NCBI RefSeq assembly: GCF_000430765.1
Contig: NZ_KE387243.1
Coordinates: forward strand, 9,225-73,224
Direction: 5' to 3'
Source: Peribacillus kribbensis DSM 17871
GTDB taxonomy: Bacteria > Bacillota > Bacilli > Bacillales > DSM-1321
DNA length: 64,000 nucleotides
Shown here: positions 44,746-64,000 of the stretch, in pieces
Layout of the letters: each line of letters opens with the position of its first letter
Position numbering within the stretch: position 1 is the first letter of the stretch
Notes under the pieces: model-generated
Database searches by the model: none
What the model was told of the DNA's origin: nothing
The model's input: the letters and a program-made list of their open reading frames with translations, nothing else
Made by a program: the position numbers and the translations under genes

Positions 44746-44774
44746 TTGAAAAATTTGTATATTAAAAATATAAT
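44746..44774 (+). promoter_or_regulatory. Near-consensus sigma-A promoter of the ddp operon
   Basis: TTGAAA (44746-44751), exactly 17 bp, then TATAAT (44769-44774). Transcription should start near 44781. Confidence 0.8.
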
Positions 44775-44784
44775 GAAAATTAAG

Positions 44785-44808
44785 TATATTTAACAAAAGT
44801 TAAATATA
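44785..44808. promoter_or_regulatory. Candidate operator at the ddp promoter
   Basis: Perfect 10-bp inverted repeat TATATTTAAC-AAAA-GTTAAATATA at the predicted transcription start, directly before a GAAAGGAGG ribosome site. It is a likely repressor site; the regulator is not known. Confidence 0.55.
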
Positions 44809-44825
44809 GTGAAAGGAGGTTAAAG

Positions 44826-45468
44826 ATGTAAGGGCATAAAAATGAAGTGCCAAAAACCGGGATGGGTGAGCCTCTTGTTTCATTAACAGCCACTTAGACA
44901 AAAATTAAATTTTATCCTTACTATCACCATTTACCCGGATCTTCCAGCGAGATTTTCTTACATCAAGGAGCAGTTGAAAGATTGTATAAAGCAGCCGGAT
45001 TACTCCCACCGATACTAAATCTGTTCTTTTGGATGGCTGAAGGTCCTATGAAACACAATATGCAATCTATCACAATACGAAAAAAATGTTTCAACAAATG
45101 GGATACTCCCCCAAAAAACCGATGAGGAGCTTACTAAATACGTCGCAAATCCTTCAAAAAGCCCGTTTTCCCCTTTTCCTCATTTAACAGGAGGAGCTGT
45201 AGACGTTACTATGGCTGAGCGATGAAAATGGATGGCTGAATATGGGTACTGACTTCGATGAATTTCATGAAAAAGCCAAATCAAATTGGTTTGAATTGAA
45301 ACCCCTTTTAACTTCAACCTAGAAAACCGCAGATTATTAAAACACACTATGGAAAGTGCTGGTTTTACTTCATACGAACAAGAATAGTGGCACTTCGATT
45401 TAGGTAATCAAAGCTGGGCATGTCTAACAGATAATATCCCCATTTATGCTTATATCGACAGAATGTAA
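44826..45468 (+). pseudogene. ddpX/vanX-type D-Ala-D-Ala dipeptidase, decayed
   Basis: After a perfect ribosome site the ATG at 44826 is followed at once by TAA. The readable pieces are VanX family: YYHHLPGSSSEIFLHQGAVE, PFPHLTGGAVDVTMAE (zinc ligands His and Asp), GTDFDEFHEKAKSNWFELK, NRRLLKHTMESAGFTSYEQE and WHFDLGNQSWA (catalytic Glu and zinc His region). In the last, EEWWHF reads E-stop-WHF. A TAG at codon 23 and several frameshifts also break it. VanX-type enzymes cleave D-Ala-D-Ala. It sits where ddpX sits in the E. coli ddpXABCDF operon, first before a peptide transporter. Confidence 0.82.
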
Positions 45469-45563
45469 TGCTACATAACTCCAAGTACCAGCATCAACAA
45501 AATTTCCCTGAACTTCTGAATATCAATCACATCTTTTCTAATATTCTTATGAGGAGGACTACT

Positions 45564-47162
45564 ATGAAAAAAAAGTTATTCATTTGGATATTGATTATGG
45601 CTGTTATTGCCATGCTAAGTGCTTGTACAAAAAATGCCAATTCGAATGCAAATAGCACAAAAAACGAAGCCAATACAGCTGCAGAGAAAAATGGCGGCAC
45701 CAATGATAGATTAACAGTGGGCATCATGGCTGACCAAGGCACCTTGGACCCTGCAGTTACGATGGACAACTCTGCGTGGAAAATCACCTATCCAGCCTAT
45801 GAACGTTTAGTTGATTATGACGGTTCTTCCACAAATGTTAAGCCAGGTTTAGCAAAAGAGTGGAAGGTAAGCAAAGACGGAAAAACATGGACGTTTACAC
45901 TTAATGAAGGACATAAATTTGCCGATGGAAGTTCAGTTGATGCGGAAGCTGTAAAGTTTAGTTTCGAGCGCTTATTAAAAATAGGCAAAGGCCCCTCCGA
46001 GGTATATGGTGTGATTTCACAAATTAAGGCAGAAAATCCAACTACAGTAACCATGGTACTTAAGGAAAACTTTCCTCCATTCCTATCAACATTAGCCGCC
46101 AACTATGGAAACATTGTCAGTCCAAAGGTAAAGGAACATGAAGTCAATGGAGATCTAGGCCAGAACTATCTAGCTAACAACACGATGGGCAGCGGTCCTT
46201 ACAAGATGGCTAATTGGAAAAAAGGAGAATATATTCAATTAGGCCTCAACCCCAACTCCAGGGTAAAACCGGCAATAAAGAATGTATATTTTAAGATCGT
46301 CGGAGATCCTTCTGCGCAAAAACTGCAGCTTGAAAAAGGTGATATTGACATAGCAGAGGGAATCCCAGTCGAACAGTTAAAAAGCCTTAAGTCGGCGAGT
46401 AATGTGACCGTATTACAAAGGCCTAGTTTATTGGTAGACTATGTCTATATCAATACCAGTAAAGGAAATAACGCGTTGAAAAACGTGAAAGTACGACAGG
46501 CATTAAATTATGGTATTGATTATAAATCGTTGATTGATGCGGTTCAGCAAGGCCTAGCTACGCAAATGCGCGGCCCCATTCCTAAAGGTTTATGGGGATA
46601 TGACGATCAAGCCAAACAATATAACCATAATGTAGATAATGCGAAGAAGCTATTAGCTGATGCAGGCGTAAAAAATCTTACTTTAAATTTACTTTACTCG
46701 GATAATAAAACCTGGTGGGAAACCGAAGCGTTAACGATTCAAGCTAATTTGGCTGAAATTGGAGTCAAGGTTAAATTAAAAAAGGTTGCCTATGCAATGT
46801 CACGGGATATGATCGACAAAGGCGATTTTGATTTGGCGCTCGGAGTCTGGAGCCCAGACTTTGGAGATCCTTATGCCTTTTTAAATTACTGGCTGGACTC
46901 CAAGAATTTCGGTTTATCCGGTAATCGTGCTTTCTATAAAAATACTGAAGTTGACACCCTGCTTCATCAGGCTGCAACTATTAATAATCAGCGTGAACGG
47001 GAAACCATTTATAAAAAAGTACAAACGATTGAGTTAGATGATGCACCTTATATTCTTCTGTATCAAAAGGATTTCATGCTTCCTATGAGCAAAAAAGTTA
47101 ACGGCTTTACTTACAACCCAATGCTTGAAGGCATCTATAATTTAGCAGAAATATCGAATTAA
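45564..47162 (+). CDS. Peptide ABC transporter substrate-binding lipoprotein (DdpA-like)
   Basis: 532 residues, SBP family 5. The signal peptide ends in the lipobox LSAC with Cys21, followed by a Asn/Thr/Lys-rich linker. Family blocks include GLAKEWKVSKDGKTWTFTLN and VKVRQALNYGIDYKSLI. The ATG at 45564 has GAGGAGG 8 nt upstream; the longer frame reaches into the dipeptidase relic. Position behind a VanX/DdpX remnant suggests D-Ala-D-Ala or another D-residue dipeptide as ligand (inference). Confidence 0.92.
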   Translation: MKKKLFIWILIMAVIAMLSACTKNANSNANSTKNEANTAAEKNGGTNDRLTVGIMADQGTLDPAVTMDNSAWKITYPAYERLVDYDGSSTNVKPGLAKEWKVSKDGKTWTFTLNEGHKFADGSSVDAEAVKFSFERLLKIGKGPSEVYGVISQIKAENPTTVTMVLKENFPPFLSTLAANYGNIVSPKVKEHEVNGDLGQNYLANNTMGSGPYKMANWKKGEYIQLGLNPNSRVKPAIKNVYFKIVGDPSAQKLQLEKGDIDIAEGIPVEQLKSLKSASNVTVLQRPSLLVDYVYINTSKGNNALKNVKVRQALNYGIDYKSLIDAVQQGLATQMRGPIPKGLWGYDDQAKQYNHNVDNAKKLLADAGVKNLTLNLLYSDNKTWWETEALTIQANLAEIGVKVKLKKVAYAMSRDMIDKGDFDLALGVWSPDFGDPYAFLNYWLDSKNFGLSGNRAFYKNTEVDTLLHQAATINNQRERETIYKKVQTIELDDAPYILLYQKDFMLPMSKKVNGFTYNPMLEGIYNLAEISN

Positions 47163-47186
47163 CATCATTGTTTGGGAGTGTTTCTC

Positions 47187-48203
47187 ATGAAGAAAATGAT
47201 TATGAAACGATTAGCGTTACTTGTTTTCGTCGTATTTGGAGTAACCTTTGTATCTTTTTTCTTATCCCACATCATTCCAGGTGATCCGGCCAGAATGATG
47301 GTTGGGCAAAGAGCCAGTGAAGAAACACTCAAGCAAGTTAGGGGACAATTGGGTTTGGACCAACCGGTCTGGATCCAATATGTTACCTATGTAAAAAATG
47401 TCATCAGTGGAGATTTAGGGACATCCATCCGCACCCAGAAACCCGTGCTGGATGATTTAACAGCCTTTTTCCCGGCTACACTTGAGCTTGCGATGGCGGC
47501 ATTCTTTATTGCTCTGTTAATAGGAATTCCATTGGGCGTCCTGGCAGCAGTTAAAAAAGATCGGTTTTGGGATCACTTTTCCCGGCTGTTTTCCATTAGT
47601 GGTGTGTCTATGCCGGTTTTTTGGAGCGGATTAATCATTATTCTACTATTTTATGGCTATCTAGGCTGGTTCCCGGCAAGCGGCCGTATTGATTTGAATA
47701 TTAATCCTCCAACTAGAGTAACCGGATTCTATTTAATAGACAGCTTGCTAAGTGGTGATATCGTAGCTTTTAAAAGCAGCCTTAAACATATCCTGCTTCC
47801 CGCCCTTGTTCTGTCATATGCTCAACTTGCAGTTATTACGCGTCAAGTTCGGGCCAGCATGTTAGAAGTCCTTGGACAAGATTATATCCGGACTGCCATG
47901 GCCAATGGGATTCATGGCTGGGTTTTGTTATATCGCTATGCCTTGAGAAACGCCCTAATTCCAACCGTTACTGTTGTAGGGATTTCATTTGGCTCTCTAT
48001 TAGGCGGTGCAGTGGTCACCGAAACCATCTTTGGCTGGCCAGGTATGGGCAAATATGTCGTAGACTCCATATCATACCTTGATTTTCCTGCCATAATGGG
48101 CTTCACGCTTTTGATATCAATTGGGTATGTGTTAATTAATCTTGTTGTAGATTTAACCTATTATTTCCTAGATCCACAGTTGAGAGAAAGTGAGGTGGAT
48201 TAA
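47187..48203 (+). CDS. Peptide ABC transporter permease (DdpB/DppB-like)
   Basis: 338 residues, six membrane helices, BPD_transp_1 fold. The N-terminus MKRLALLVFVVFGVTFVSFF and GDLGTSIRTQKPVLDDL are DppB-like; the EAA loop is TAMANGIHGWVLLYRYALRN. ATG 47187 follows GGGAG; the frame opens five codons earlier at a TTG. Confidence 0.92.
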   Translation: MKKMIMKRLALLVFVVFGVTFVSFFLSHIIPGDPARMMVGQRASEETLKQVRGQLGLDQPVWIQYVTYVKNVISGDLGTSIRTQKPVLDDLTAFFPATLELAMAAFFIALLIGIPLGVLAAVKKDRFWDHFSRLFSISGVSMPVFWSGLIIILLFYGYLGWFPASGRIDLNINPPTRVTGFYLIDSLLSGDIVAFKSSLKHILLPALVLSYAQLAVITRQVRASMLEVLGQDYIRTAMANGIHGWVLLYRYALRNALIPTVTVVGISFGSLLGGAVVTETIFGWPGMGKYVVDSISYLDFPAIMGFTLLISIGYVLINLVVDLTYYFLDPQLRESEVD

Positions 48204-48204
48204 A

Positions 48205-49083
48205 TTGAGTGCGGAAATACAGACTGTAAAACAAATAGAAAAACCGATAACTATTCACCCAGTCTGGTATAAATTAAAAAACAATAAAATGACATGGATA
48301 GGATTTGTTATTATATTTGTCATCATTCTTACCTCCTTGCTCGCGCCTGTTTTGACTTCATACGACCCAACCAAAATTTATATTGTTGAAAAATTCCAAG
48401 GCCCTTCGGGTAAACATTGGTTTGGAACAGATGAAGTGGGAAGGGATATTTTATCAAGAATCCTATATGGGGGCAGACTTTCACTGGGAATGGGTGTTTT
48501 GGCCATTCTGATTACCGCAGCTATTGGAATTGTTTTGGGAACCATTTCCGGCTTTTTTGGCGGGTATATTGATCAAATTATAATGAGGATAATGGACATG
48601 ATCCTAGCCTTCCCAACTTTAATTTTAGCGATGGCCTTGGCTGCGGCACTGGGTCCAAGCCTGCAAAACGCTATGCTGGCAATCGCTATTGTCAAAATTC
48701 CTGTTTACGTTCGGTTAGCGCGCAGTGAAACCTTAGTTCTCCGCGAGAAGCTTTTTGTAAAATCAGCTATTACCTTTGGAATTCATCCTGTAAGGATTAT
48801 ATTAAAGCATATCGTCCCAAACTCCTTATCACCTGTGATAATCCAAGCTACCCTTGATATCGGCGATGCGATATTGATGATTGCCACCCTTGGATTTCTT
48901 GGCCTCGGAGCTCAGCCTCCTACACCAGAATGGGGGGCAATGATAAGCATTGGTTGGAAATACTTGCTGGATTTCTGGTGGTATCCAACTTTTCCGGGAA
49001 TATTTCTCTTCATGTCTTCCTGTGCCTTTAATTTAATCGGTGACGGGATTCGTGACATTCTTGATCCAAAGTCGAATAGTTAG
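48205..49083 (+). CDS. Peptide ABC transporter permease (DdpC/DppC-like)
   Basis: About 292 residues. Key blocks are HWFGTDEVGRDILSRILYGG and the EAA-like VKSAITFGIHPVRIILKHIV. I favour the TTG at 48205, right after the previous stop, with GAGGTGG 7 nt upstream; the alternative GTG at 48190 would overlap the previous gene by 14 bp. Pairs with DdpB. Confidence 0.9.
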   Translation: MSAEIQTVKQIEKPITIHPVWYKLKNNKMTWIGFVIIFVIILTSLLAPVLTSYDPTKIYIVEKFQGPSGKHWFGTDEVGRDILSRILYGGRLSLGMGVLAILITAAIGIVLGTISGFFGGYIDQIIMRIMDMILAFPTLILAMALAAALGPSLQNAMLAIAIVKIPVYVRLARSETLVLREKLFVKSAITFGIHPVRIILKHIVPNSLSPVIIQATLDIGDAILMIATLGFLGLGAQPPTPEWGAMISIGWKYLLDFWWYPTFPGIFLFMSSCAFNLIGDGIRDILDPKSNS

Positions 49084-49092
49084 GAGGCAGCT

Positions 49093-50064
49093 ATGTTACT
49101 TGAAATGAAAGATGTATCAGTAGAATTTACTGGAATGAGAGGAAGCGTGCAAGTACTTAAAAATATAAGTTTGAACATTTCAAAAGGAGAAATTTTAGGG
49201 ATTGTAGGTGAATCGGGCTCTGGAAAATCGGTGACGGCCCTATCTATCCTGCGCTTATTGGGGAATAACGCCAAAACGTCTAATGGCGAAATCCTTTTTA
49301 ATGGAACCGATCTTTTAAAAATAAGAACAAAAGAAATTCAAGCCTTAAGAGGTAAAAAGATTGGTATGGTCTTTCAAGAGCCCATGACTGCCCTACATCC
49401 AACCATGAAAATTGGACGACAGCTGGCTGAGGTCATCGAAAGGCACCGGGCCGTATCAAAAAAAGCGGCCTTTCGCTTGGCGGTTCAAGCTTTAAAAGAC
49501 GTTCACATACATGATCCAGAACTGGTCGCTGCAAAATATCCTTTTGAATTAAGCGGAGGTATGCGCCAGCGGATTGTAATAGCTTTAGCAATGGCTGCAC
49601 CGCCTGATTTACTTATTGCCGATGAACCAACCACCGCATTAGATGTCACAATTCAAGCAGAGATTTTAAATTTAATTAAAGAATTGAATAATAAAAATGA
49701 CACCTCTGTCCTGATAATAACTCATGATATGGGTGTGATTTCACAACTTTGCCAGCGGACGTTAGTCATGTACGGGGGTGAAATTGTTGAATCTGGTTCA
49801 ACAAATGGAGTATTAAAAAACCCAAAACATCCGTATACAAAAGCATTGCTGAATGCCCTTCCCGATTTAGCAGATCCAGCCCAACCATTACAAGCAATTC
49901 CAGGAGAAATCATGGATCTTCGTCATCGTCCTAATGGCTGCTCCTTTGCTGCCCGCTGCTCAATAGCGGGAGAATATTGCCGTACCCACCAACCTGCCCT
50001 TGTAGAGATTTTGCCTCAGCATTATACCGCTTGTTGGAAAGGAGAAAAAGAACAAAATGATTGA
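49093..50064 (+). CDS. Peptide ABC transporter ATPase (DdpD/DppD-like)
   Basis: 323 residues with Walker A GESGSGKS, Q-loop FQEPMTALHP, signature LSGGMRQRIVIA, Walker B LLIADEPTTALD and H-loop THDMG. The C-terminal extension GCSFAARCSIAGEYCRTHQP holds the Cys cluster of this family. GGAGGCAGCT precedes the ATG. It overlaps the next gene by 8 bp. Confidence 0.93.
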   Translation: MLLEMKDVSVEFTGMRGSVQVLKNISLNISKGEILGIVGESGSGKSVTALSILRLLGNNAKTSNGEILFNGTDLLKIRTKEIQALRGKKIGMVFQEPMTALHPTMKIGRQLAEVIERHRAVSKKAAFRLAVQALKDVHIHDPELVAAKYPFELSGGMRQRIVIALAMAAPPDLLIADEPTTALDVTIQAEILNLIKELNNKNDTSVLIITHDMGVISQLCQRTLVMYGGEIVESGSTNGVLKNPKHPYTKALLNALPDLADPAQPLQAIPGEIMDLRHRPNGCSFAARCSIAGEYCRTHQPALVEILPQHYTACWKGEKEQND

Positions 50065-50980
50065 TATCCATCAAGTTAGAAAAACATTTAAAACCGGGGC
50101 AATGAAGATTGACGCTGTAAAGGACACAAATTTGTCCATACAGCAAGGGGAAACTGTTGGCCTTGTTGGAGAATCAGGTTCTGGAAAAAGTACATTGGGT
50201 AAAATGCTGAGTGGGCTGGAAACACCAACGGATGGAATGATAGCCTATAAAGGAATTGAACTCTGGAAGAAAAAGAAATTTAAACGACTCCGGCCGGGTG
50301 AAATCCAAACAGTCTTTCAGGATCCACAATCCTCTTTAGACCCCAGAATGAGGGTAAAAGATATTATCCTAGAGCCTCTATTGGCGTTAAATTCAAAAGA
50401 ACGAAAAGAAAAAGGAAAAATGGAAAGACTCATTTATTTAATGAAAAGGGTTGGATTAAAGGAAGACCATATGAATCGTTACCCACATGAATTCAGTGGT
50501 GGACAACGTCAGCGAATTGCAATTGCCCGTGCACTAATAACAGATCCTCAGTTTATGATTTTAGATGAGCCAACATCCGCTTTAGACATTTCCGTCCAAG
50601 CGCAGGTTCTAAATTTATTGAAGGAATTAAAAAGAGAAAAGAATTTAACCTATATTTTTATTTCTCATAACATGTCAGTGATCCGATATATGTGTGATAG
50701 AGTAGCGGTTATGTATAAGGGGAAAATCGTGGAAATAGGTCCCGTTCAATCCATTTTTCAAAATCCTAAACATCCTTATACTAAAATTCTACTCTCTTCT
50801 CTTCCCAGCTTATTTGAAGAAACGAAAGAAAAAATTAACTTTTCACATCCTCCTAGCTTAAGTTCTGAGTCAGCCTGTGTATTTTACCAGAAATGTCCAC
50901 TAAGGCAGGAAATTTGTCTTAAAGAACCATGTTATCAACCAGCCTCAGAAAACCACACTTTTTCTTGCCACTTACAATAA
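50057..50980 (+). CDS. Peptide ABC transporter ATPase (DdpF/DppF-like)
   Basis: 307 residues. Walker A GESGSGKST, Q-loop FQDPQSSLDPR, signature FSGGQRQRIAIA, Walker B MILDEPTSALD and H-loop SHNMS are present, plus a C-terminal Cys region (CVFYQKCPLRQEICLKEPC). The start overlaps ddpD. It completes the ABCDF set, so the transporter is intact although the dipeptidase before it is not. Confidence 0.93.
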   Translation: MIDIHQVRKTFKTGAMKIDAVKDTNLSIQQGETVGLVGESGSGKSTLGKMLSGLETPTDGMIAYKGIELWKKKKFKRLRPGEIQTVFQDPQSSLDPRMRVKDIILEPLLALNSKERKEKGKMERLIYLMKRVGLKEDHMNRYPHEFSGGQRQRIAIARALITDPQFMILDEPTSALDISVQAQVLNLLKELKREKNLTYIFISHNMSVIRYMCDRVAVMYKGKIVEIGPVQSIFQNPKHPYTKILLSSLPSLFEETKEKINFSHPPSLSSESACVFYQKCPLRQEICLKEPCYQPASENHTFSCHLQ

Positions 50981-50994
50981 AGGGAGGAAAAAAC

Positions 50995-51228
50995 GTGTTG
51001 CAAGGAAGAAAAATCCGTGAACTAAGGAAGAACAAAAACTTAACTTTAAAGGAATTAGCTGTACAAACAGGTTTGAGTTCAAGCCTTTTATTTCAGATTG
51101 AACGAGATCTGGTGGATCCAACTGTAACAACTTTCTGGAAAATTTGCGGCATTATCAAAGCAATTGCCTTTCGGGGACATGCTTGTGATGATGCCGTTTT
51201 TTTCTGCCGCATTTTGAGATTGTGCTAA
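50995..51228 (+). CDS. XRE-family regulator, C-terminally truncated
   Basis: About 77 residues from GTG 50995, which follows AAAGGGAGG. The HTH_3 domain is complete (IRELRKNKNLTLKELAVQTG and SSSLLFQIERDLVDPTVTT, about residues 6-50). It closely resembles the N-terminus of XRE-cupin regulators such as the one at 63054. Instead of the cupin sensor domain the frame ends in an unrelated Cys-rich tail (HACDDAVFFCRILRLC) next to a dispersed Bacillus-type repeat. It is probably a truncated, perhaps inactive, former local regulator of the peptide genes. Confidence 0.7.
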   Translation: MLQGRKIRELRKNKNLTLKELAVQTGLSSSLLFQIERDLVDPTVTTFWKICGIIKAIAFRGHACDDAVFFCRILRLC

Positions 51229-51492: not shown

Positions 51493-52998
51493 ATGATTTC
51501 TCATAATGAAGTGGCCTATATGTCTGCAAGTGAAATAGCTGCTAAAATTAAAGACCTTGAATTTTCCCCTGTAGAAGTGACAGAGGCCTTTATCAATCGT
51601 ATTGAAGAAAGAAATAAAAGTTTAAATGCTTTTGTCTACTTTGGATATCAAGACGCATTGAACAAAGCAAAAGAGACAGAACGGTCTTTGTTAGCCGGTG
51701 AAGATGTTGGCATGTTTCATGGTGTGCCTTCAGCTTTAAAAGATTTGTTTGGCGCCAAGCCTGGCTGGATTTCTACTTTTGGAGGCATCAGAGCATTTAA
51801 AGATAACGTAGTAAACCATTATTGTGCCTATGGGGAGCGCTTTGAAAAGGCAGGTGGAATTTTACTAGGTAAAACAAATAGTCCCGTTTTAGGTTTTCGT
51901 GGGGTGACAGATAATTATTTGTTTGGACCTACACGAAACCCATTTGATTTAAGTAGAAACGCAGGGGGATCATCTGGTGGAAGCGCCGCGGCAGTTGCTG
52001 ATGGTCTCGTTCCAATTGCTCAAGGATCGGATACTGGTGGATCCACTCGTATCCCAGCGGCATGGTGTGGAATATATGGTTTTAAGCCTTCTGGTGGACG
52101 TGTGCCTTTCTTAGGAAGACCTGACGGTTTTAGAACTTACATATTTTCAACTGAGGGAACACTGACACGAACCGTCGAGGACGCAGCACTAAGTCTTAGT
52201 ATGTTAACGGGATATGACAATCGAGATCCTTATAGTCTAAATGAAAAAGTGGACTTCCGGTCGGCATTACATGGTTCTATCAAAGATTGGCGAATTGCCT
52301 ACAGTCCAAATTTTGGCGTTTACCCTGTTGATAGTCGTGTTGCTCAAACGGTAGCCGAAGCAGTAAAGGTATTCGAACAGGCTGGAGCTACTGTTGAAGA
52401 AGTTGACATTGGTATTCCTTATGATCAACGGGAGTTAAGTGAACTCTTTAATCGGATTGTAATGAGAGGGTCAATTTCCATATTCGAAAATTATAAAAGT
52501 AAGGGAATAGATTTATTAAAGGATCATCGAGAAGATTTGCCTCCTCAGTATCTTGAATGGATTGAGAAAGCTTACCAGATGAACATGCTTGATGTTAACC
52601 AAGATCAAATTATGCGTACTACAATCTATGATGTGATTCAAAATGTATTTAAAGATTATGATTTATTAATAACACCAACAGTAGCCTCTCTTCCAACAGA
52701 AAATGGCCATTGGGGAAACACGCTTGGTCCGAGTCAAATTAACGGTGAAGAAATAGACTCATTAATTGGATGGTGTATGACCTATATCACCAATTTTACG
52801 GGTCATCCTTCTGCATCGATCCCTGCAGGGCTTTCAGACCAACTTCCCGTTGGAATGCAAATTATCGGAAAACGGTATGCAGATACCGATGTGATAACAG
52901 CTAGTGCTGTATTTGAAAAGCTGAAACCTTGGAATCATATTTATGAAATATGTAAGAATCGAATCTTAGACATTCATCAAATATCCTCAAGAAATTAA
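51493..52998 (+). CDS. Amidase signature-family hydrolase
   Basis: 501 residues. The triad Lys is in GVPSALKDLFG (about residues 77-87), the bridging Ser in NAGGSSGGSAAAVA and the nucleophile Ser in GSDTGGSTRIPAA. The order and spacing are normal for amidases such as peptide amidases or GatA-like hydrolases. TATGGAGG precedes the ATG. Set between the D,D-peptide transporter and the D-amino acid genes, it could release ammonia or cleave an amide in an imported compound (inference); the substrate is unknown. Confidence 0.9.
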   Translation: MISHNEVAYMSASEIAAKIKDLEFSPVEVTEAFINRIEERNKSLNAFVYFGYQDALNKAKETERSLLAGEDVGMFHGVPSALKDLFGAKPGWISTFGGIRAFKDNVVNHYCAYGERFEKAGGILLGKTNSPVLGFRGVTDNYLFGPTRNPFDLSRNAGGSSGGSAAAVADGLVPIAQGSDTGGSTRIPAAWCGIYGFKPSGGRVPFLGRPDGFRTYIFSTEGTLTRTVEDAALSLSMLTGYDNRDPYSLNEKVDFRSALHGSIKDWRIAYSPNFGVYPVDSRVAQTVAEAVKVFEQAGATVEEVDIGIPYDQRELSELFNRIVMRGSISIFENYKSKGIDLLKDHREDLPPQYLEWIEKAYQMNMLDVNQDQIMRTTIYDVIQNVFKDYDLLITPTVASLPTENGHWGNTLGPSQINGEEIDSLIGWCMTYITNFTGHPSASIPAGLSDQLPVGMQIIGKRYADTDVITASAVFEKLKPWNHIYEICKNRILDIHQISSRN

Positions 52999-55975: not shown

Positions 55976-56848
55976 ATGGAACCTATCAAAGAAGTCATCC
56001 GCAAGAATTTTAATACGTTAACGAATCGTCAAAAAATTGTAGCTAAATTTATTTTGGACCATCCACAACAAATCGCTTTCCAAAAGGCAAAAGAAGTCGG
56101 TGAGTTGACATCAACCAGTGAGACTACGGTGATACGCCTTTGTTACGCGCTTGGATATACAGGATTTAGTCATTTGCAAAAGCAGATTCAAACAACTTTA
56201 TTAGAGAATGGACAAACAGATCCATTAGGAAAGTATAGTGTATCAACTGGTGCTCTCAGTCAGAACAATGATGATCTTATCAAACAAATTAAAGAGCGGG
56301 ATATTGCTTTTATAGAGAAAACGCTGGATTCTTTGAATGCAGAATTATATCAAAAAATTATCGATGCTATTCTGTATTCAAAAAATAGATGTGTCATTGG
56401 AATGAGAAGCTCGTATGCAGCAGCTAATTGGCTGGCGTTTAGTTTAAACATTGTGAAAGGTAACACCCATTTGTATAGAGGAGAAATTGACGACGCAATT
56501 TCTTTAATTTCAGACATGGACAAAGATAGCTTGGTTATTGCGTTTTCATTTCCGCGTTATGCGGAGGAGACTGTTTCGTTTGTCAAGGCCGCCAAGAAAA
56601 AGGGAGCGAAAATATTAGCTATAACGGATAACGAAATATCTCCCTTAGGATCATTAGCGGATATGTTGATTAAAGTTTACACGCCCTCTCCTGCAGGACT
56701 AAACGGGATGGCTACGATGTTTTCATTGCTGAATGTTATTGTATCTGGCGTCGCCTCATCCAAGTGGGAAGAGGTACAAAATAGAATTAATGACTATCAA
56801 CAAACGAGCGAACAGTACTTTCCATTTTTTATGCAGGAGAAGGATTGA
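55976..56848 (+). CDS. RpiR/MurR-family transcriptional regulator
   Basis: 290 residues: an N-terminal HTH_6 domain (residues ~1-75, LTSTSETTVIRLCYALGYTG) and a SIS sugar-phosphate-type isomerase domain (about 115-250, SLVIAFSFPRYAEETVSFVK, ILAITDNEISPLG). RpiR proteins with SIS domains often sense cell-wall sugars or phosphosugars (MurR). The gene lies 34 bp upstream of the racemase gene and on the same strand, so it is probably cotranscribed and controls the block. Confidence 0.9.
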   Translation: MEPIKEVIRKNFNTLTNRQKIVAKFILDHPQQIAFQKAKEVGELTSTSETTVIRLCYALGYTGFSHLQKQIQTTLLENGQTDPLGKYSVSTGALSQNNDDLIKQIKERDIAFIEKTLDSLNAELYQKIIDAILYSKNRCVIGMRSSYAAANWLAFSLNIVKGNTHLYRGEIDDAISLISDMDKDSLVIAFSFPRYAEETVSFVKAAKKKGAKILAITDNEISPLGSLADMLIKVYTPSPAGLNGMATMFSLLNVIVSGVASSKWEEVQNRINDYQQTSEQYFPFFMQEKD

Positions 56849-56882
56849 TCCTCTAACATTAAATAGAGAAAGGGGCTATGAC

Positions 56883-58013
56883 ATGAATATAGATAAAGTG
56901 GAAATTTCTAGACTTAAAATGCCACTAAAAAACCAATTTGAGACCAGCTTTGGCCGTTTGACATATAAAGATTTTCTCGTAGTCAGTGTCCATAGCGGCG
57001 ACTTTATAGGATATGCAGAAAGCGCTTCTCTTCCATATCCTATATATAATGAAGAAACCACAGGAACCGTCAGTTATATTCTTAAGGAATTTCTTATTCC
57101 TAAATTGTTCTCAGCTAAAAGCATCAAACATCCCACTGACATTCATGAACTCTTTATGCCAATCCGACGGAATAACATGGCTAAAGCTGTCCTTGATGGA
57201 GCGATTTGGGATTTATATTCAAAACAACAAGGTATTTCACTTGCAACCGCTCTTGGGGGTCATAAAAGTGAAATTGATGTAGGCGTCAGTATCGGTATCG
57301 AGGATACCGTCGAAAAAGTGCTCGAGAAAGTGGAGCAATTTATTGGAGAAGGTTACAAAAAAATTAAAATAAAAATTAAACCAGGTCATGATGTCGAAGT
57401 GATTCGTGCCATTCGGGAACAATTTAGCCCTAATATCCCGTTGATGGCAGATGCAAACTCAGCTTACTCATTAAATGATGTGAATATCCTTAAACAATTG
57501 GACCAGTTTAACCTTATTATGATTGAGCAGCCATTGTCTCACGATGACATTATTGATCATGCTAAGCTTCAAGAACAGCTGGCTACGCCAATTTGCCTGG
57601 ATGAAAGTATTCATTCAGTGGAAGACGCTAGAAAAGCTATTGAACTAGGAAGTTGTAAAATTATAAATATTAAGGTTGGTCGTGTGGGCGGACTGACAGA
57701 AGCTAAAAAAATTCATGATTTATGTAAATCTCACAATATTCCGGTTTGGTGTGGGGGGATGCTTGAAGCTGGGATCGGACGTGCACATAATATTGCCCTT
57801 TCGTCGCTCGACAACTTTAGTATCCCTGGGGATACATCCGCTTCTGATCGTTATTGGGCTTATGATATCGTTACGCCAGAGGTCATGTTATCTCAACCAG
57901 GTAGGCTTCAAGTGCCGGACTCTCCCGGTATTGGCTATGAAATCAACGAAGCAGTATTGAATCAATATGTGATCGATAAAGAGTTATTTACAAAGGAATT
58001 GATATTGAAATAA
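56883..58013 (+). CDS. N-succinylamino acid racemase / OSBS-family enolase superfamily protein
   Basis: 376 residues, muconate-lactonising subgroup. Catalytic lysines are Lys164 in KIKIKIKPG and Lys264 in NIKVGRVGG, on opposite faces. Metal ligands are Asp190 (MADANSAY), Glu215 (IEQPL) and Asp240 (LDES). MLEAGIGRAHN and PGDTSASDRY are signatures of the NSAR/OSBS family rather than dipeptide epimerases. With no menaquinone genes near and GNAT and M20 genes downstream, N-succinylamino acid racemisation is the better guess. ATG 56883 follows AAAGGGG; the longer frame overlaps the RpiR gene. Confidence 0.88.
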   Translation: MNIDKVEISRLKMPLKNQFETSFGRLTYKDFLVVSVHSGDFIGYAESASLPYPIYNEETTGTVSYILKEFLIPKLFSAKSIKHPTDIHELFMPIRRNNMAKAVLDGAIWDLYSKQQGISLATALGGHKSEIDVGVSIGIEDTVEKVLEKVEQFIGEGYKKIKIKIKPGHDVEVIRAIREQFSPNIPLMADANSAYSLNDVNILKQLDQFNLIMIEQPLSHDDIIDHAKLQEQLATPICLDESIHSVEDARKAIELGSCKIINIKVGRVGGLTEAKKIHDLCKSHNIPVWCGGMLEAGIGRAHNIALSSLDNFSIPGDTSASDRYWAYDIVTPEVMLSQPGRLQVPDSPGIGYEINEAVLNQYVIDKELFTKELILK

Positions 58014-58047: not shown

Positions 58048-59655
58048 ATGTTTGATTTCATTATAAAAGGTGGACAGGTTTTTGATGGTACAGAAAATCC
58101 ATGGACGAAACTAGATATTGGTATTAAAAACGGGGTAATTTGTAAAATGGGTGATTTAAGTAATGAACAGGCTGCAACAGTGATAGATGCTAAGGGCTTG
58201 GCTGTTTCACCTGGATTTATCGATACGCATGTTCATTCTGATTTACTCTGTACCAAACCAGAAATCCATCATATAAAAGTATTACAAGGTGTTACCACTG
58301 AATTATTTGGACAGGATGGTATTTCTGTTGCGCCAGTATCTGAAGAAACCAAGCCTCTATGGCAAAAGCAGTTAAAAGGACTCAATGGAGATATTGGCGA
58401 TTGGCCATGGAACACAATCGATGAATACCTTCATTTTTTGGAAAATTCAAAAATTGCAGGGAATGCGACATACTTGGTGCCACATGGGGCTGTACGGACA
58501 CTTGTCATGGGCTTTGATGGACGTCCGGCGACAAAAGACGAAATGGATCAAATGCAACTCCTTGTGGAAGAGGGGATAAAGCAGGGAGCAGTAGGGGTAT
58601 CTTCAGGTTTGGTGTATCCTCCCAATGTGTTTTCCAATAAAGAAGAGTTAATTGCTATCTGCAAAGGGGCAGCTAAATATGACGGCTGCTTTGTGGTTCA
58701 CATTCGAAACGAGAGCAACCACTCCTTAGAAGCGTTGGATGAAGTCATTGATGTCGCCCGTCAATCAGGTGTTCGTCTTCATGTCTCTCATTTCAAAGTG
58801 GCAGGTAAAACAAATCGAGAAAAATTTGTAAAAGCACTTGAAAAAATGGACCAGGGCCGTAAGGAAGGAATTGAAATCACATTTGATCAATACCCGTATA
58901 CAGCTGGATCAACTGTATTTCACGCTATTTTACCTCCTTGGATGCATGCAGGAGGAACTTCTGAACTGTTAGAAAAATTAACGGAACCGGAAATCCGAGA
59001 AAAAATAAAGCAAGAATTTAAGCATAATGAAGACTACGAAAACTGGGTCCTTACCTGTGGTTGGGAAAACATTATTATTTCTGCCGTTTCTACAGAAAAA
59101 AACCGCTGGGCCGAAGGCAAAAACATGATCGAAGTTGCTAAATTACTAAAAGAAGACCCTGCAGACGCAGCCTTTGATTTACTAATCGAGGAGAATGCGG
59201 GAATTACGATGGTGGTTCATTGGGGCGATGAGGGTGATGTAATTTATGGAATGCAACATCCGCTACAGATAGTGGGGTCGGACGGGATTTTTGGTGGGAA
59301 ACCCCATCCTAGACTTTACGGAACATATCCACGTGTGTTAGGAAGATATGTGCGCGAAAAACATGCCCTTACACTCGAACAGGCCGTGCGTAGGATGACA
59401 GGGGCGCCTGCACAATTGCTTCGTTTAAAAGATAGAGGATTAATCCGAGAAAGTTATGCCGCGGACATTGTAGTGTTTGATCCCAAAACAGTGAATGACC
59501 AATCAACATACGAAAACCCACTAGAAGAGCCAGTTGGAATAATTTACGTCTTTGTAAATGGTCAGCTGGCCGTAAAAGAAGGCAAGTATATCGGTACTAC
59601 CGCAGGAAAAGTGTTGCGACAGGAGAACAGTTATGCAAGCAAAGTTTATCTATAA
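58048..59655 (+). CDS. N-acyl-D-amino-acid deacylase (D-aminoacylase)
   Basis: 535 residues, amidohydrolase superfamily. It begins FDFIIKGGQVFDGTENPW with metal ligands His61 and His63 in FIDTHVHSD. Later motifs VVHIRNES and LHVSHFK supply the bridging and histidine ligands, and GSDGIFGGKPHPR the catalytic Asp. It hydrolyses N-acyl-D-amino acids to the free D-amino acid. AGGAGGG precedes the ATG. The stop overlaps the start of the GNAT gene by 23 bp. Confidence 0.92.
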   Translation: MFDFIIKGGQVFDGTENPWTKLDIGIKNGVICKMGDLSNEQAATVIDAKGLAVSPGFIDTHVHSDLLCTKPEIHHIKVLQGVTTELFGQDGISVAPVSEETKPLWQKQLKGLNGDIGDWPWNTIDEYLHFLENSKIAGNATYLVPHGAVRTLVMGFDGRPATKDEMDQMQLLVEEGIKQGAVGVSSGLVYPPNVFSNKEELIAICKGAAKYDGCFVVHIRNESNHSLEALDEVIDVARQSGVRLHVSHFKVAGKTNREKFVKALEKMDQGRKEGIEITFDQYPYTAGSTVFHAILPPWMHAGGTSELLEKLTEPEIREKIKQEFKHNEDYENWVLTCGWENIIISAVSTEKNRWAEGKNMIEVAKLLKEDPADAAFDLLIEENAGITMVVHWGDEGDVIYGMQHPLQIVGSDGIFGGKPHPRLYGTYPRVLGRYVREKHALTLEQAVRRMTGAPAQLLRLKDRGLIRESYAADIVVFDPKTVNDQSTYENPLEEPVGIIYVFVNGQLAVKEGKYIGTTAGKVLRQENSYASKVYL

Positions 59656-60466
59656 GATTATAACTGAACTCGAACCACTGTCTGACATTGTTGAATTACA
59701 AAAAATAGTGTGGGGAGAAGAGGTAGTCACCTCTCTCCCACAAATGATGGCTGCCATTCACAACGGCGGGGTCGTGATTGGTGCATTTGAAAAGGAATCC
59801 AGTACACTAGTGGGATTTTGCTATGGATTTGCCGGATACAGTAATGTTAGAAAAAAGCCATATTTATGTTCTCATATGATGGCCATACACCCCCAATATC
59901 GAAATCAAGGAATCGGTAAGCAATTAAAATTAAAACAACGAGAGTGGGCAATTGAATATGGCTACGAAAAAATAATATGGACTTTTGACCCCCTTGAAGT
60001 TAAAAATGGATATCTTAACCTATCTAAACTGGGCGGATATGTAAAAACGTATATTGAAGCTTATTATGGTTACATGAATGATAAATTAAATAAAGATACA
60101 CCCTCCGACAGATTCTTGGTGGAATGGGATCTTTTGTCTGAACCGGTGATATTTGCGATTGAGGAAACCCGCAACCAAGCCGAGTGGAAGAATTACGAAA
60201 AACTATCTGACATTAAGTTTGACGGTGAACATCCTATTCCTAGTGATGATTATAGATTGCAACAACATATTTCAGGTTATCTGATACCTATTCCAAAAGA
60301 GGTACGGCAAATGAAGGATGACGCACCTGAACTGTTCCAAGTGTGGCGATCATACACTCGCAATAAACTAAATGAAGCCCTTTCAAATGGCTATCATGTC
60401 ACCGGGGTGATTCCGGAAGATCATATTGCGTATTACGTACTAGAAAGAAGTGATCCTTCTGCATAA
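59633..60466 (+). CDS. GNAT acyltransferase, probable D-amino acid N-succinyltransferase
   Basis: 277 residues, longer than a minimal GNAT. The acyl-CoA loop is RNQGIG at 90-95 in MAIHPQYRNQGIGKQLKLKQ, followed by IIWTFDPLEVKNGYLNLSKLGG, features of the COG3375 group. A COG3375 member works as a D-amino-acid-specific succinyltransferase beside NSAR in Geobacillus kaustophilus, and the same neighbours occur here. The substrate is inferred from that precedent. It overlaps both the deacylase gene (23 bp) and the M20 gene (17 bp). Confidence 0.85.
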   Translation: MQAKFIYKIITELEPLSDIVELQKIVWGEEVVTSLPQMMAAIHNGGVVIGAFEKESSTLVGFCYGFAGYSNVRKKPYLCSHMMAIHPQYRNQGIGKQLKLKQREWAIEYGYEKIIWTFDPLEVKNGYLNLSKLGGYVKTYIEAYYGYMNDKLNKDTPSDRFLVEWDLLSEPVIFAIEETRNQAEWKNYEKLSDIKFDGEHPIPSDDYRLQQHISGYLIPIPKEVRQMKDDAPELFQVWRSYTRNKLNEALSNGYHVTGVIPEDHIAYYVLERSDPSA

Positions 60467-61664
60467 TACACAAACAAACATTAGTCTATCTAGAATCAAA
60501 GAATGGGTGAGGAATAACAACACTCTTCTGCTAGATACTTACGACAAATTACATGACTTGGCAGAAGTTAGTTGGAAGGAACAAAAAACGAGAGATTTCC
60601 TTTGTAAAGAACTAGATAAACTAGGTCTTCCATACGAAACGTACCCAAGTCATTGTGGAATAGTGGTTAAATGGAACAGCGGTACTCTTGGCCCAACTAT
60701 CGCTTTACGGACGGACATGGATGCATTATGGCAGAATGTGGAAGGTGTATGGAAGGCAAACCATTCATGCGGGCATGACGCGCATATGACCATGGTTTTA
60801 AATACTCTTCGTTGTTTAAAGGAATTCAAATTCCAACCGAATAGTGGATGCCTAAAAATTATTTTCCAACCTGCTGAAGAGACAGGGAAAGGTGCTCAAG
60901 CAATCATAAAAGATGGAATAGTCGATGACGTGGATTTCTTGCTCGGTATTCATGTTAGACCGGTATTCGAACTTGGGATGGGGCAGGCATCCTCTGCTAT
61001 TTACCATGGAGCTGCCACTCTTTTAAAAGGAAAAATTAAAGGGATACAATCCCATGGGTCAAGACCTAATCTGGGCATTAATGTGGTAGATTCCCTTGGG
61101 GCGATTATAAGTGCGGTTAATTCGGTTAAGGTTGATCCAACCTTACCAAGTTCAGCAAAAGTTACACAAGTGAAAGCCGGTGGGGAAAACATCAATGTTA
61201 TTCCCGATGAAGCAGAGTTTAGTATCGATCTTAGAGCACAAACGAATAAGGCCATGGAAGCTTTAACAGAAAGTGTAATGAGAGCTGTTCAATATGCAGG
61301 GGAAGCCAATGGCGCTGAAGTACAACTTGAAATTCGTGCGCATATGGCAGCAGCAGAGAAAAGCCCTGATATGGAAGAAATAGTGGGAGAAGTGGTTCGC
61401 CAAATACTTGGTGAAAAATCACTTGTCCAACCTCCTGTTACACCGGGCGGGGAAGATTTTCATTTTTATACAAAGGAAAGACCTAATATTCAAGCAACGA
61501 TGGTAGGGTTAGGTACAGGCCTAGAACCGGGTCTTCATCACCCAAATATGAAATTTAACTTAGCATCTTTGGGGAATGGCGTAGCTATTTTAACAGCCTC
61601 TGTCATTAAGTTATTTGAAAAAAAACGAGATAAACTAAAGGAGTATAAGAATGATAGAGTCTAA
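60450..61664 (+). CDS. M20-family amidohydrolase, probable N-acyl/N-succinyl-L-amino acid hydrolase
   Basis: 404 residues. The metal-binding motif CGHDAHMTM is at 107-115, the catalytic Glu pair in FQPAEETGKGA, and GIHV plus PGGEDFHFY are downstream, as in M20D aminoacylase/amidohydrolases. In the NSAR pathway the M20 partner removes succinate from N-succinyl-L-amino acids. The start is a GTG at 60450 inside the previous gene with a weak AAAG leader, so the N-terminus is less certain. It overlaps the RidA gene by 14 bp. Confidence 0.88.
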   Translation: MILLHNTQTNISLSRIKEWVRNNNTLLLDTYDKLHDLAEVSWKEQKTRDFLCKELDKLGLPYETYPSHCGIVVKWNSGTLGPTIALRTDMDALWQNVEGVWKANHSCGHDAHMTMVLNTLRCLKEFKFQPNSGCLKIIFQPAEETGKGAQAIIKDGIVDDVDFLLGIHVRPVFELGMGQASSAIYHGAATLLKGKIKGIQSHGSRPNLGINVVDSLGAIISAVNSVKVDPTLPSSAKVTQVKAGGENINVIPDEAEFSIDLRAQTNKAMEALTESVMRAVQYAGEANGAEVQLEIRAHMAAAEKSPDMEEIVGEVVRQILGEKSLVQPPVTPGGEDFHFYTKERPNIQATMVGLGTGLEPGLHHPNMKFNLASLGNGVAILTASVIKLFEKKRDKLKEYKNDRV

Positions 61665-62109
61665 AATAAAAGAACTTGGATATGAGTTACCACCAGCACC
61701 AGCACCACTGGCCAATTATGTTACCATTAATCGTTCTGGAAACCTTCTTTTTACTTCTGGCTCCGGATGCTTTATCGATGGAAAGCCACTTTACCAAGGT
61801 AGGCTTGGAGAAGATATTTCTATCGAGCAAGGCTATGACGCGGCTAGAATTACTGCTTTAAATTTACTCAGTATAGTAAAGGAAGAGCTCGGGGATTTAA
61901 ATAAAGTGAAAAAAGTAGTCAAACTACTCGGATTTGTAAGTTCTACATATGACTTTTATAATCATCCACAAGTAATCAATGGTGCTTCAGATCTTTTGGT
62001 AGAGGTTTTCGGGGAAAAGGGGAAGCACGCAAGGTCGGCTATAGGAACCGGTGTCCTTCCCTTGAATTTACCAGTTGAAATTGAGATGGTCCTAGAAATA
62101 GAAGAGTGA
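61651..62109 (+). CDS. RidA/YjgF-family protein
   Basis: 152 residues, longer than canonical RidA (about 125) and of the subgroup beginning ELGYELPPAPAPLANYV. GNLLFTSGSGCF and ARSAIGTGVLPLNLPVEIEM are family blocks; the usual substrate-site Arg is in HARSAIG. RidA proteins hydrolyse reactive enamines/imines from amino acid metabolism. It closes the five-gene overlapping set and may clear imines or a hydantoin-type intermediate (inference). AAAGGAG precedes the ATG. Confidence 0.88.
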   Translation: MIESKIKELGYELPPAPAPLANYVTINRSGNLLFTSGSGCFIDGKPLYQGRLGEDISIEQGYDAARITALNLLSIVKEELGDLNKVKKVVKLLGFVSSTYDFYNHPQVINGASDLLVEVFGEKGKHARSAIGTGVLPLNLPVEIEMVLEIEE

Positions 62110-62198: not shown

Positions 62199-62936
62199 GA
62201 GAGATAAGAAAGTATATAATTTTTTTCCATCACAGTCCTTGATACTGTGTTATTTTTTGTATGTAAGGCAATTTTTTATACGGTATTTTCCACACTTTTA
62301 TAGGGTTTAAATGCAGGATATGCCCTATGTACCCTCCGCTCAATTAGCTGAGGATGAACAAATCGTATTGGAGTATGATGACACAGTCGGGATGGAAAGT
62401 GGGTATCCACACGCGAATAGCCAAAGGATTGTTTGCTGGTTTGTTCGCTCTTTCGCTTTCACTTTTTGGTCTGAGTCCCAATGAAGTCGTCTTAAAAGCG
62501 AGCACGGTTCCAACAGTGTTAAGTGGTGTGCTAAAAAGCCTTCCATGTACAAAACTATATCCTCTTCTAGAGTCGCTTCTGTCTGTTAGCGGATATAAGT
62601 ATTGGATTGGCACCCGAGTGTTTTGAGACATTTGGTAAAGTAGAATAGAAGTCGCGACCAATTTTATATTCAAATAGCATGTTACTGGGAATCGCGCTCT
62701 GTAGAGGTTAGGGAAAACGGTTAGTTGGCTTGGTCTTCAATACAAACTCTTACTTGGTTTAGTTGGTCTGATTCCTGCAAGATTTAATTTCCAAGCGCAC
62801 AAATCAGTTAAAGCCAAGACTAGGGCGTGCATTTTTATAAATCTCTTTTAAAATTGATGATTTAGCCATGCCGGCTTTTTCCACCTTTTTAAGAACAGAA
62901 TAACAAAGGCATTTTTCACTATTTCAAATTTTTAGA

Positions 62937-63028
62937 AAATACTGTCATCATTTTAAATATTGTGATAACATAAATAATAAATACAGTATTACTTAAAAAA
63001 TTACAGTCAGATATGAAACACAGTATTT
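62937..63028. promoter_or_regulatory. Three ACAGTATT sites before the XRE-cupin gene
   Basis: AAATACTGT (62937-62945) is the inverse of ACAGTATT (62983-62990), and ACAGTATTT recurs at 63020-63028. They are likely autoregulatory sites for the adjacent XRE protein (inference). Confidence 0.45.
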
Positions 63029-63053
63029 GCTAAGAGTGCTGGAGGTTTTACTA

Positions 63054-63599
63054 GTGGAAGAAGAAGTATCAAAAAGGATCAAGGAATGGCGATTGGAAAG
63101 GAAGTTGACGTTGAAGGAGCTGAGTGAGAAAACGGGATTATCCGTCAGTTTTTTATCGCAGGTTGAACGAGGCTCATCTTCAATTGCTATTACGTCGCTA
63201 AAAAAGATAGCTGATGCAGTAGAGGTTCCAATAACCAGCTTTTTCGAGGATTATGCTAACAACAATTACATAGTTCGGGCACAAGAGCAAAAACCCTTTC
63301 GCTTGGAAGGATCAGGTGTGGTTTATACGAGATTAGGAGGGGAGTTTGCAGGGAGGACGGTAGAACCACTGTTGTTAACAATTCCTCCAGGTCAGCCTGG
63401 TGAAAAATCCACGAACCATCCTGGTGAAGAATTTTATTACGTTCTTGAAGGGGAACTTTATTTTGAGGTTGATGGAGAAGAGTACACTGTAAAATCAGGT
63501 GATTCTATTCATTTTCCATCCACATCTACACATTTTATGTCAAACCCTCTCAATCAAATTGCAAAGGTACTTTGTTTTGTCACACCGGTTATTTTTTAG
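63054..63599 (+). CDS. XRE-family regulator with cupin sensor domain
   Basis: 181 residues from GTG 63054 (GGAGG 8 nt upstream; the TTG at 63027 has none). The N-terminal HTH_3 is IKEWRLERKLTLKELSEKTG and following VSFLSQVERGSSS (about 8-55). The C-terminal cupin_2 domain is HPGEEFYYVLEGELYFEVDG with GDSIHFPSTSTHFMSNP (about 110-175), the typical SutR/PuuR-like layout in which the cupin binds a small metabolite. It probably regulates the hydantoinase-type gene that follows and perhaps the D-amino acid block upstream. Confidence 0.9.
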   Translation: MEEEVSKRIKEWRLERKLTLKELSEKTGLSVSFLSQVERGSSSIAITSLKKIADAVEVPITSFFEDYANNNYIVRAQEQKPFRLEGSGVVYTRLGGEFAGRTVEPLLLTIPPGQPGEKSTNHPGEEFYYVLEGELYFEVDGEEYTVKSGDSIHFPSTSTHFMSNPLNQIAKVLCFVTPVIF

Positions 63600-63640
63600 A
63601 AAAGCAGTTATTTAAATAATCTATAAGGTGGTTAAAGTCA

Positions 63641-64000
63641 TGAGAGTTGCAACTGATATTGGTGGAACATTTACGGATTTAGTTTATGTTGATCAGCAAG
63701 GGAAAATTGGCGTCGCTAAAAGCCATACTACTCCTCCGAACTTTGAACAAGGTGTGCTGGATGTCATCAGTGTTAGCGGTATTGGCACTGAACAGCTAGA
63801 AACGTTTATCCATGGTACGACCGTAATAATTAACGCCTTAACAGAGAGAAAAGGTGTAAAGACAGGCTTGATTACAACCAAAGGGTTTAGAGATGTGCTG
63901 GAAATCGCCCGTGGAAACCGACCAGATCTATTTAATATCCAATACGAAAAGCCTGCTCCTTTCGTTCCTCGTTATCTACGCCAGGAAGTTGAAGAGCGCT
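63641..64000 (+). CDS. Hydantoinase/oxoprolinase A family protein (HyuA), 5' part
   Basis: 120 codons are visible before the window ends. The frame starts MRVATDIGGTFTDLVYVDQQ, the actin-like phosphate loop of Hydant_A_N proteins. It continues FIHGTTVIINALTERKGVKT and FRDVLEIARGNRPDLFN, both diagnostic. Family members hydrolyse N-methylhydantoin or 5-oxoproline with ATP, or carboxylate ketones, together with a HyuB partner that should lie just beyond the window. ATAAGGTGG precedes the ATG. Its position after the XRE-cupin gene suggests that it is that regulator's target. Confidence 0.9.

Follow-up and report, generated by a model that had tools for sequence, protein, structure and literature searches.

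A candidate operon for D-amino acid catabolism in Peribacillus kribbensis built around a distinct clade of N-succinylamino acid racemases

Peribacillus kribbensis DSM 17871 carries a tightly packed gene set that probably forms an operon for breaking down D-amino acids in N-acylated or amide-linked form, centred on a gene of the N-succinylamino acid racemase (NSAR)/o-succinylbenzoate synthase (OSBS) family. The window analysed is the 64,000-nucleotide stretch at positions 9,225 to 73,224 of contig NZ_KE387243.1 (contig C9 of the genome labelled G000; other contigs of the same genome are cited as C1 and C6). Gene packing and comparison with relatives divide its last part into three units: a peptide importer (44847–51147), the NSAR operon (51493–62109), and an XRE-cupin/Hyu unit from ~63030. 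In the putative D-to-L conversion, to which a probability of about 0.55 is given, the MFS transporter would import the substrate, and the amidase, the M81 peptidase and a deacylase-like amidohydrolase would cut its amide bond to free a D-amino acid. Three steps would follow, in which the GNAT-fold acyltransferase forms an N-succinyl-D-amino acid from succinyl-CoA, the NSAR racemises it to the N-succinyl-L form, and the M20 hydrolase releases succinate and the L-amino acid. The RpiR-type protein probably regulates the operon; the identity of the substrate and the part that each hydrolase plays are guesses.

From the MFS gene to the RidA gene, intergenic gaps are at most 81 bp, and the last four genes overlap at all three of their junctions. 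A first-pass annotation of this DNA had predicted that the NSAR, deacylase-like, GNAT and M20 neighbourhood would be conserved, and this is the case. Together with the RpiR gene, these genes occur in six distinct loci, namely the window and L015, L016, L020, L027, and L028 (L numbers denote loci and G numbers genomes). The six represent at least three genera, as L020 and L028 both belong to genus g78, and L015 and L027 may each fall in a genus already represented. A named scan found eight deacylase loci, of which those of Fictibacillus terranigra, Thalassobacillus devorans, and Fredinandcohnia onubensis hold all five core genes, the first also with amidase, MFS, alpha/beta hydrolase, and M81 genes. 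At E 1e-100, deacylase relatives are found in 21 of the 397 genomes of the order, the window genome included, giving two further core loci, L027 (G048) and L028 (G337). L028 has an ABC-type transporter, read from sequence, and an M81 gene between the NSAR and deacylase genes.

The deacylase-like enzymes closest to that of the window share a GQDG motif, and 33 distinct GQDG loci of the order and class were compared. These comprise the window, the eight loci of the named scan, other hits in the order of at least 60% identity, and 16 class-wide stretches, counting the best-scoring deacylase of at least 60% identity per locus and same-strand neighbours within 9 kb; L034 and L035 were examined in small part only. 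Six of the 33 have an NSAR gene so placed, where chance would be expected to put one at ~0.5–1% of such loci, given an assumed copy number and genome size and relatives that are not independent. M81 is present in ten and the full set of five Dpp genes in five. NSAR genes of the usual M20-GNAT-NSAR operon type lie near the deacylase at four other loci among the matches listed, on the other strand in L017 and ~8 kb away with M20 and GNAT in L019, L030, and L031.

The association extends to another order of the same class, where G733 (L120, L109) holds NSAR, GNAT, MFS, M81, deacylase, and amidase genes within ~15 kb. Its NSAR (50% identical to the P. kribbensis paralogue on C6) and a weakly matching RpiR gene (21%) lie back to back with a GNAT (49% to the C6 copy) and an MFS gene (40%). 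Next come M81 (66%), an S9-like protein read from sequence, a weakly matching M20 (24%), a GQDG deacylase (70%), and an amidase (70%). Across orders, then, these genes have either stayed together or been reassembled. The earlier claim that extra amide-cleaving enzymes are joined to the NSAR also held up. Of the 12 NSAR genes of at least 63% identity among the matches listed, 7 have an M81 gene within 10 kb, and M81 relatives at E 1e-120 occur in only 22 of the 397 genomes. The window amidase recurs in L015 (93%) and L109 (70%), and the MFS transporter is 82% identical in L015 and 48–50% identical in L018, L019, and L021.

The window NSAR scores above the TIGR01928 cut-off of 200.65, placing it in the NSAR/OSBS subfamily, and keeps the motif positions KIKIK, ADAN, IEQP, LDES, and KVGR along with nine other aligned rows. 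These presumably hold the catalytic Lys pair, the metal Asp-Glu-Asp, and the NSAR-linked Arg three residues past the second Lys. In a tree of 40 NSAR genes it falls within a 14-gene clade (support 100/99) that leaves all 20 usual-type controls outside, so that it does not group with the usual operon type. Eleven clade members have catabolic partners nearby: the six linked to a deacylase gene group together (99/92), and the five that adjoin M81, with Dpp genes, make up a sister branch. The other three (L045, L048, and L051) lack both M81 and deacylase. Groups were assigned by the analyst from the neighbourhood table, and L023, L025, and L029 were dropped from counts as the same loci as L020, L022, and L021. 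The controls, at 56–61% identity, were chosen from the matches listed before their neighbours were seen. GNAT lies within 9 kb in 19 and M20 in 15 of the 20 controls, and neither deacylase nor M81 does in any; 2 of the 20 control stretches, and 12 of the 40 NSAR stretches overall, fall short of 9 kb on one side.

The M81 branch carries a GNAT gene in all five loci. L044, L047, and L049 hold all five Dpp genes within 9 kb of the NSAR, and L046 and L050 run on into Dpp genes past M81 (overlapping stretches L081 and L082 of the same contigs). Hydrolases of S9 or S33 type and proteins of beta-lactamase fold are further members of some of these loci (profiled on L046 and L049). More broadly, beta-lactamase-fold serine hydrolases adjoin M81-Dpp-NSAR groups or the GQDG deacylase in L046, L049, L050, L075, L076, L108, and L115–L118. 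They were profiled on L046, L049, and L116 only, with class A models below curated cut-offs, and the others were read from sequence.

The deacylase-like amidohydrolase was initially annotated as an N-acyl-D-amino-acid deacylase. Aligned with D-aminoacylase 1m7j, it keeps HVH, HIRN, SHFK, and GSDG (His-X-His, two later His, Lys, and Asp). These are taken to be metal and active-site residues, as is Cys96, the metal ligand in the GNCG motif of D-aminoacylases. At this last position the window enzyme has GQDG (Asp90). GQDG is found in 23 of 30 aligned rows (20 of 27 distinct rows, window included), and GNCG in seven distant rows (L037–L043) whose genes adjoin RidA (52–58%) and a deaminase-like protein read from sequence. 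The two solved relatives compared here, 1m7j and 9g5m, both read GNCG. Because the metal-site Cys is replaced by Asp, activity on N-acyl-D-amino acids is uncertain, and the family name is best treated as a lead, not as membership. The AlphaFold model of the enzyme is poor (pLDDT, the predicted local distance difference test, 48.6; nine similar sequences) and no inference was drawn from it. A 440-residue protein lies near the GQDG deacylase in 18 of the 33 loci (e.g. L018 8589–9920), with no Pfam or NCBIfam match for the L018 copy, and tandem GQDG deacylase pairs flank a peptide solute-binding protein (SBP), after DppBCDF, in L104, L105, and L107. The GQDG enzymes thus point to an uncharacterised D-aminoacylase-family branch whose metal site is altered.

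For the other enzymes, structural relatives give partial clues. The closest solved chain to the amidase is the aryl acylamidase 4yj6 (554 bits), and M81 has a solved relative in microcystinase C (7ylq, 212 bits). Both M81 domains (PF07364 and PF07171) are present, but the protein scores 220 bits against an MlrC model cut-off of 999. The M20 hydrolase contains HSCGHDAH, PAEE, and GGEDF, presumably its metal sites. The GNAT protein, which we take to be COG3375, has an AlphaFold model of pLDDT 87 that matches general GNAT folds in the PDB and gives no substrate clue; no trustworthy sequence relative was found there (best E 0.013).

The altered metal site of the deacylase weighs against the proposed function, and so do several further observations. 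Twenty-seven of the 33 GQDG loci show no same-strand NSAR within 9 kb in the stretch examined, so the GQDG enzyme has uses without the converter. The co-location counts include relatives and are not independent. MFS, M81, amidase, and RidA are not fixed parts of the operon: L016, L020, and L027 have an SSS symporter in place of MFS and no M81, and RidA was not found beside the core in L015, L016, L020, L027, or L028. The M81 branch is weakly supported (82/44), with M20 within 9 kb in only two of its five loci (L044 and L050). L045 and L048 carry a window-clade NSAR with no catabolic partner nearby at all, and a Dpp importer also lies close to the NSAR of two controls from one family (L100 and L102). 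Many RpiR proteins sense sugar phosphates. Finally, we infer the function of the operon, enzyme activities included, from protein families and the known pathway.

A direct route is unlikely, but parts of the evidence fit it. The NSAR would racemise an imported N-acyl-D-amino acid without prior deacylation and M20 would cut the N-acyl-L product, leaving the GNAT to handle only D-amino acids freed by M81 or the amidase, and the GQDG enzyme with another substrate. The metal site of the GQDG enzyme, unlike that of D-aminoacylase, is consistent with this, and the solved NSAR relatives 1sja and 1r0m are named N-acylamino acid racemases. The accessible part of a review also lists N-acetylmethionine racemisation by the NSAR family, though with a Km of 11,470–40,000 compared with 1,700–2,800 for the N-succinyl substrates shown (unit presumably micromolar; PMC8142540). 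Moreover, GNAT is kept in all six core loci, and a purely direct route would not need it.

It is rather improbable that the cluster degrades some other amide, such as a ureido compound or aryl amide, with D-amino acids as one product among others. In the known pathway, NSAR and GNAT act on the chirality of amino acids, and that all six core loci have them suggests that the route passes through a D-amino acid. In favour of another amide are the aryl acylamidase nearest to the amidase in the PDB and a creatininase gene that adjoins the core in L016 and L020. Two D-aminoacylase relatives point the same way, as far as the accessible parts of their reports go: UacY is proposed to cleave a ureido group (PMC12507026) and OngB to act on N-acetylglucosaminic acid (PMC9537276).

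The proposed catabolism of D-amino acids by the NSAR operon would not extend to the importer unit upstream, which is the remnant of a separate ddp-type operon, decayed in its peptidase and regulator, and not the evolved partner of the NSAR unit. A VanX/DdpX relic had been recognised ahead of the importer, and DdpX-like proteins of five relatives (L053–L057) indeed match 44847–45462 in frames 1, 2, and 3, with E down to 5e-32 (tblastn against a 7.6-kb stretch; the PF01427 profile was run on the L054 protein only). At the other end, ~51 N-terminal residues of an XRE regulator remain (up to 73% identity over 51 residues, tblastn), and the cupin part gave no match in tblastn with the XRE-cupin proteins of L053, L056, and L058. 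The XRE-cupin gene reported by the first-pass annotation is present at ~63030; the XRE piece beside the importer is a second relic. The genes for the SBP, DppB, DppC, DppD, and DppF are all open, and the importer may still bring in peptides. Its SBP matched only the general family PF00496, and none of the 13 NCBIfam models listed scored above its cut-off, so that specificity for D-Ala-D-Ala would be hypothetical.

Seven of the 396 other genomes of the order have a relative of this SBP (56–72% identity, E at most 1e-150), and the window DppBCDF are 53–80% identical to the importer genes of these loci (L053–L059). An open DdpX-like gene lies directly upstream of the importer in five (L053–L057) and an M19 dipeptidase in two (L058 and L059). 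An XRE-cupin gene lies directly downstream in L053, L056, and L058, and the L054 stretch ends 700 bases past DppF; Pfam was run on L054 and L058 only. None of the seven loci has an NSAR or deacylase within stretches of 15–20 kb. E. coli ddpXABCDF, which serves D-Ala-D-Ala utilisation, has the same order of a DdpX-like gene followed by an SBP and DppBCDF, open in L053–L057. The window differs in its broken DdpX, the XRE-cupin relic 3' of the importer, and the lack of a nearby NSAR in the seven relatives.

The whole 19 kb had been proposed as a single combined system, ddp-like importer and HyuA included, which now appears very doubtful. Shared strand and close spacing speak for it, as does the co-occurrence of NSAR, GNAT, M81, and DppABCDF in L044, L047, L049, L046/L081, and L050/L082. 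However, the importer SBPs of those loci are of another type, only 24–27% identical to that of the window, and no NSAR- or deacylase-bearing locus among 96 checked has an SBP or DppB at least 50% identical. Because NSAR and GNAT there adjoin M81 and a different Dpp importer, the predicted pairing of DppBCDF transporter and converter is true of the sister-branch relatives and not of the window importer, which has its own peptidase and regulator neighbours broken. HyuA must also be set aside: HyuA/HyuB matches (23–31%) lie near only 2 of 40 NSAR genes, both usual-type controls (L091 and L095), and none near window-clade NSAR genes across the 96 loci.

A second NSAR/OSBS gene (55% identity) lies on contig C6, of the usual M20-GNAT-NSAR type, with its own GNAT (39% to the window GNAT) and M20. 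The men genes menF, menD, menH, menB, and menE are on contig C1 and are not followed by a menC. A similarity search gave no NSAR/OSBS match on that contig, though a too distant MenC could escape it. As the NSAR family also makes o-succinylbenzoate, the physiological job of these enzymes is hard to fix. We infer that the C6 gene can supply the OSBS activity, and the window NSAR would therefore be free for catabolism. That the window NSAR is mainly the missing MenC, with incidental neighbours, is a long shot: the absent menC, the use of TIGR01928 as a MenC model, and the lack of a second NSAR at E 1e-80, among the matches listed, in G048, G004, G229, and G252, which have window-clade NSAR genes, are outweighed by the C6 gene and by the catabolic partners of 11 of the 14 clade members. 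The L045 and L048 genes are the sole NSAR at E 1e-80 in their genomes, among the matches listed, and may serve menaquinone synthesis there. A clade with uptake and amide-cutting neighbours, next to a usual-type copy retained elsewhere in the genome, is a clean case for testing D-amino-acid salvage.

The gene families named at first reading at 44746–64000 were confirmed by open reading frame (ORF) reading and by Pfam and NCBIfam profiles, all on one strand from 44847 (Table 1).

Table 1. Features of the three units, with window coordinates and supporting matches.
Feature	Coordinates	Strand	Evidence
ddpX/vanX-like D-Ala-D-Ala dipeptidase (M15D) relic, broken in several frames	44847..45462	+	tblastn with open DdpX-like proteins of L053-L057
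Peptide-type solute-binding protein (SBP_bac_5)	45546..47162	+	PF00496, 316 bits
DppB, DppC, DppD, DppF of peptide ABC importer	47172..50980	+	PF00528 (two BPD_transp_1 permeases); PF00005, PF08352 (two ABC ATPases with oligo_HPY)
XRE-cupin regulator relic, N-terminal part only	50977..51147	+	tblastn with XRE-cupin proteins 3' of importer in L053, L056, L058
Amidase-signature hydrolase	51493..52998	+	PF01425
MFS transporter	53134..54363	+	PF07690 (MFS_1)
M81 (MlrC-like) metallopeptidase	54404..55894	+	PF07364, 311 bits; PF07171, 198 bits
RpiR-type regulator	55976..56848	+	PF01418 (HTH_6), PF01380 (SIS)
NSAR/OSBS-family N-succinylamino acid racemase (start codon chosen by the analyst; ORF open from 56733)	56880..58013	+	TIGR01928, 378 bits; tree; active-site motifs
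D-aminoacylase-like amidohydrolase, GQDG subfamily	58048..59655	+	PF07969 (Amidohydro_3); 1m7j, 283 bits
GNAT-fold acyltransferase, presumed D-amino-acid N-succinyltransferase	59633..60466	+	PF00583
M20 amidohydrolase, presumed N-succinyl-L-amino acid hydrolase	60450..61664	+	TIGR01891, 258 bits (cut-off 153.75)
RidA/YjgF-type protein	61651..62109	+	PF14588
XRE-cupin regulator and start of HyuA/HyuB cluster, continuing past window end	63030..64000	+	PF07883, PF01381, PF01968

The third unit runs past the window end in the order XRE-cupin, HyuA1, HyuB1, cupin, M24, HyuA2, HyuB2, Asp/Glu racemase, and MFS (L012 2252–14908; HyuA2, HyuB2, and MFS read from sequence, and the whole HyuA read in L012). 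It may share a theme with the NSAR operon, and nothing ties the two. The region had been described as an island; a compositionally distinct island was discarded, as GC content is 0.37–0.42 here and 0.34–0.43 elsewhere in the window. Promoter and terminator scans gave counts similar to shuffled sequence (59 sites vs. 50.4, sd 6.8, and 13 vs. 15.2, sd 4.6, respectively), and Rfam gave zero matches across 42000–64000. Further upstream on the same strand, what is apparently a separate sugar operon (38720–43489, ORF reading) encodes a binding protein of sugar type with two permeases, together with a protein like sucrose/levan hydrolases. A short open piece at 44503–44670 (+), followed by stops, presumably resembles the start of a phage terminase small subunit.

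A wider model is put forward tentatively, at somewhat worse than even odds, in which Bacilli salvage D-amino acids by means of a modular system. An NSAR branch for catabolism, apart from the menaquinone-compatible one, would be combined with interchangeable importers (Dpp-type ABC, SSS, or MFS) and interchangeable amide cutters (M81, the GQDG branch with Asp in its metal site, amidase, S9/S33, or beta-lactamase-fold hydrolases), and the GQDG enzymes would form a new deacylase specificity class. Literature searches with poor coverage of subscription journals found no account of NSAR with this deacylase or with M81, which is weak evidence of absence.

Several known systems resemble parts of the NSAR operon. 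The Glu of the Adda-Glu bond in microcystin is a D-residue. As far as the accessible parts of the reports go, the microcystin mlr cluster contains the M81 protein MlrC together with MlrF, annotated as a D-aminoacylase, and MlrD, presumably a transporter (PMC4520899), and in microcystin products the Adda-Glu bond is where MlrC cuts (PMC12474180). Joint use of M81 and D-aminoacylase-family proteins on compounds bearing D-amino acids would thus have a precedent, and the three functions share a cluster as in the window. Those same parts name no NSAR, GNAT, or M20 (PMC4520899, PMC12474180), and the window M81 falls below the MlrC cut-off. The accessible account of the ong cluster for oxidised chitin likewise places a D-aminoacylase-family enzyme, RpiR, RidA, and transporters together, including an SSS symporter as in L016, L020, and L027, and names no NSAR (PMC9537276). 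The deacylase relatives L037–L043, whose RidA and deaminase-like neighbours resemble this cluster, carry GNCG, not GQDG.

The DgcN-DgcA pathway for D-glutamate (NCBIfam NF042940) follows the same logic of acylation, racemisation by an enolase-family enzyme, and deacylation. The window NSAR is distinct from its racemase, at 122 bits compared with a DgcA cut-off of 400. The nearest comparison is the NSAR-GNAT-M20 pathway of Geobacillus kaustophilus, reportedly described by Sakai and colleagues in 2006, which converts a D-amino acid through its N-succinyl-D and N-succinyl-L forms into the L-amino acid. The window carries the same three families on one strand (56880–61664), with the NSAR active-site motifs kept. 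In contrast to that pathway, its NSAR lies in a separate clade, a deacylase-like gene stands between NSAR and GNAT, amidase, M81, MFS, and RpiR genes are added upstream, and a usual-type copy is kept elsewhere in the genome. The operon would therefore represent a previously unrecorded form of the NSAR D-to-L pathway, equipped with dedicated amide hydrolases and uptake.

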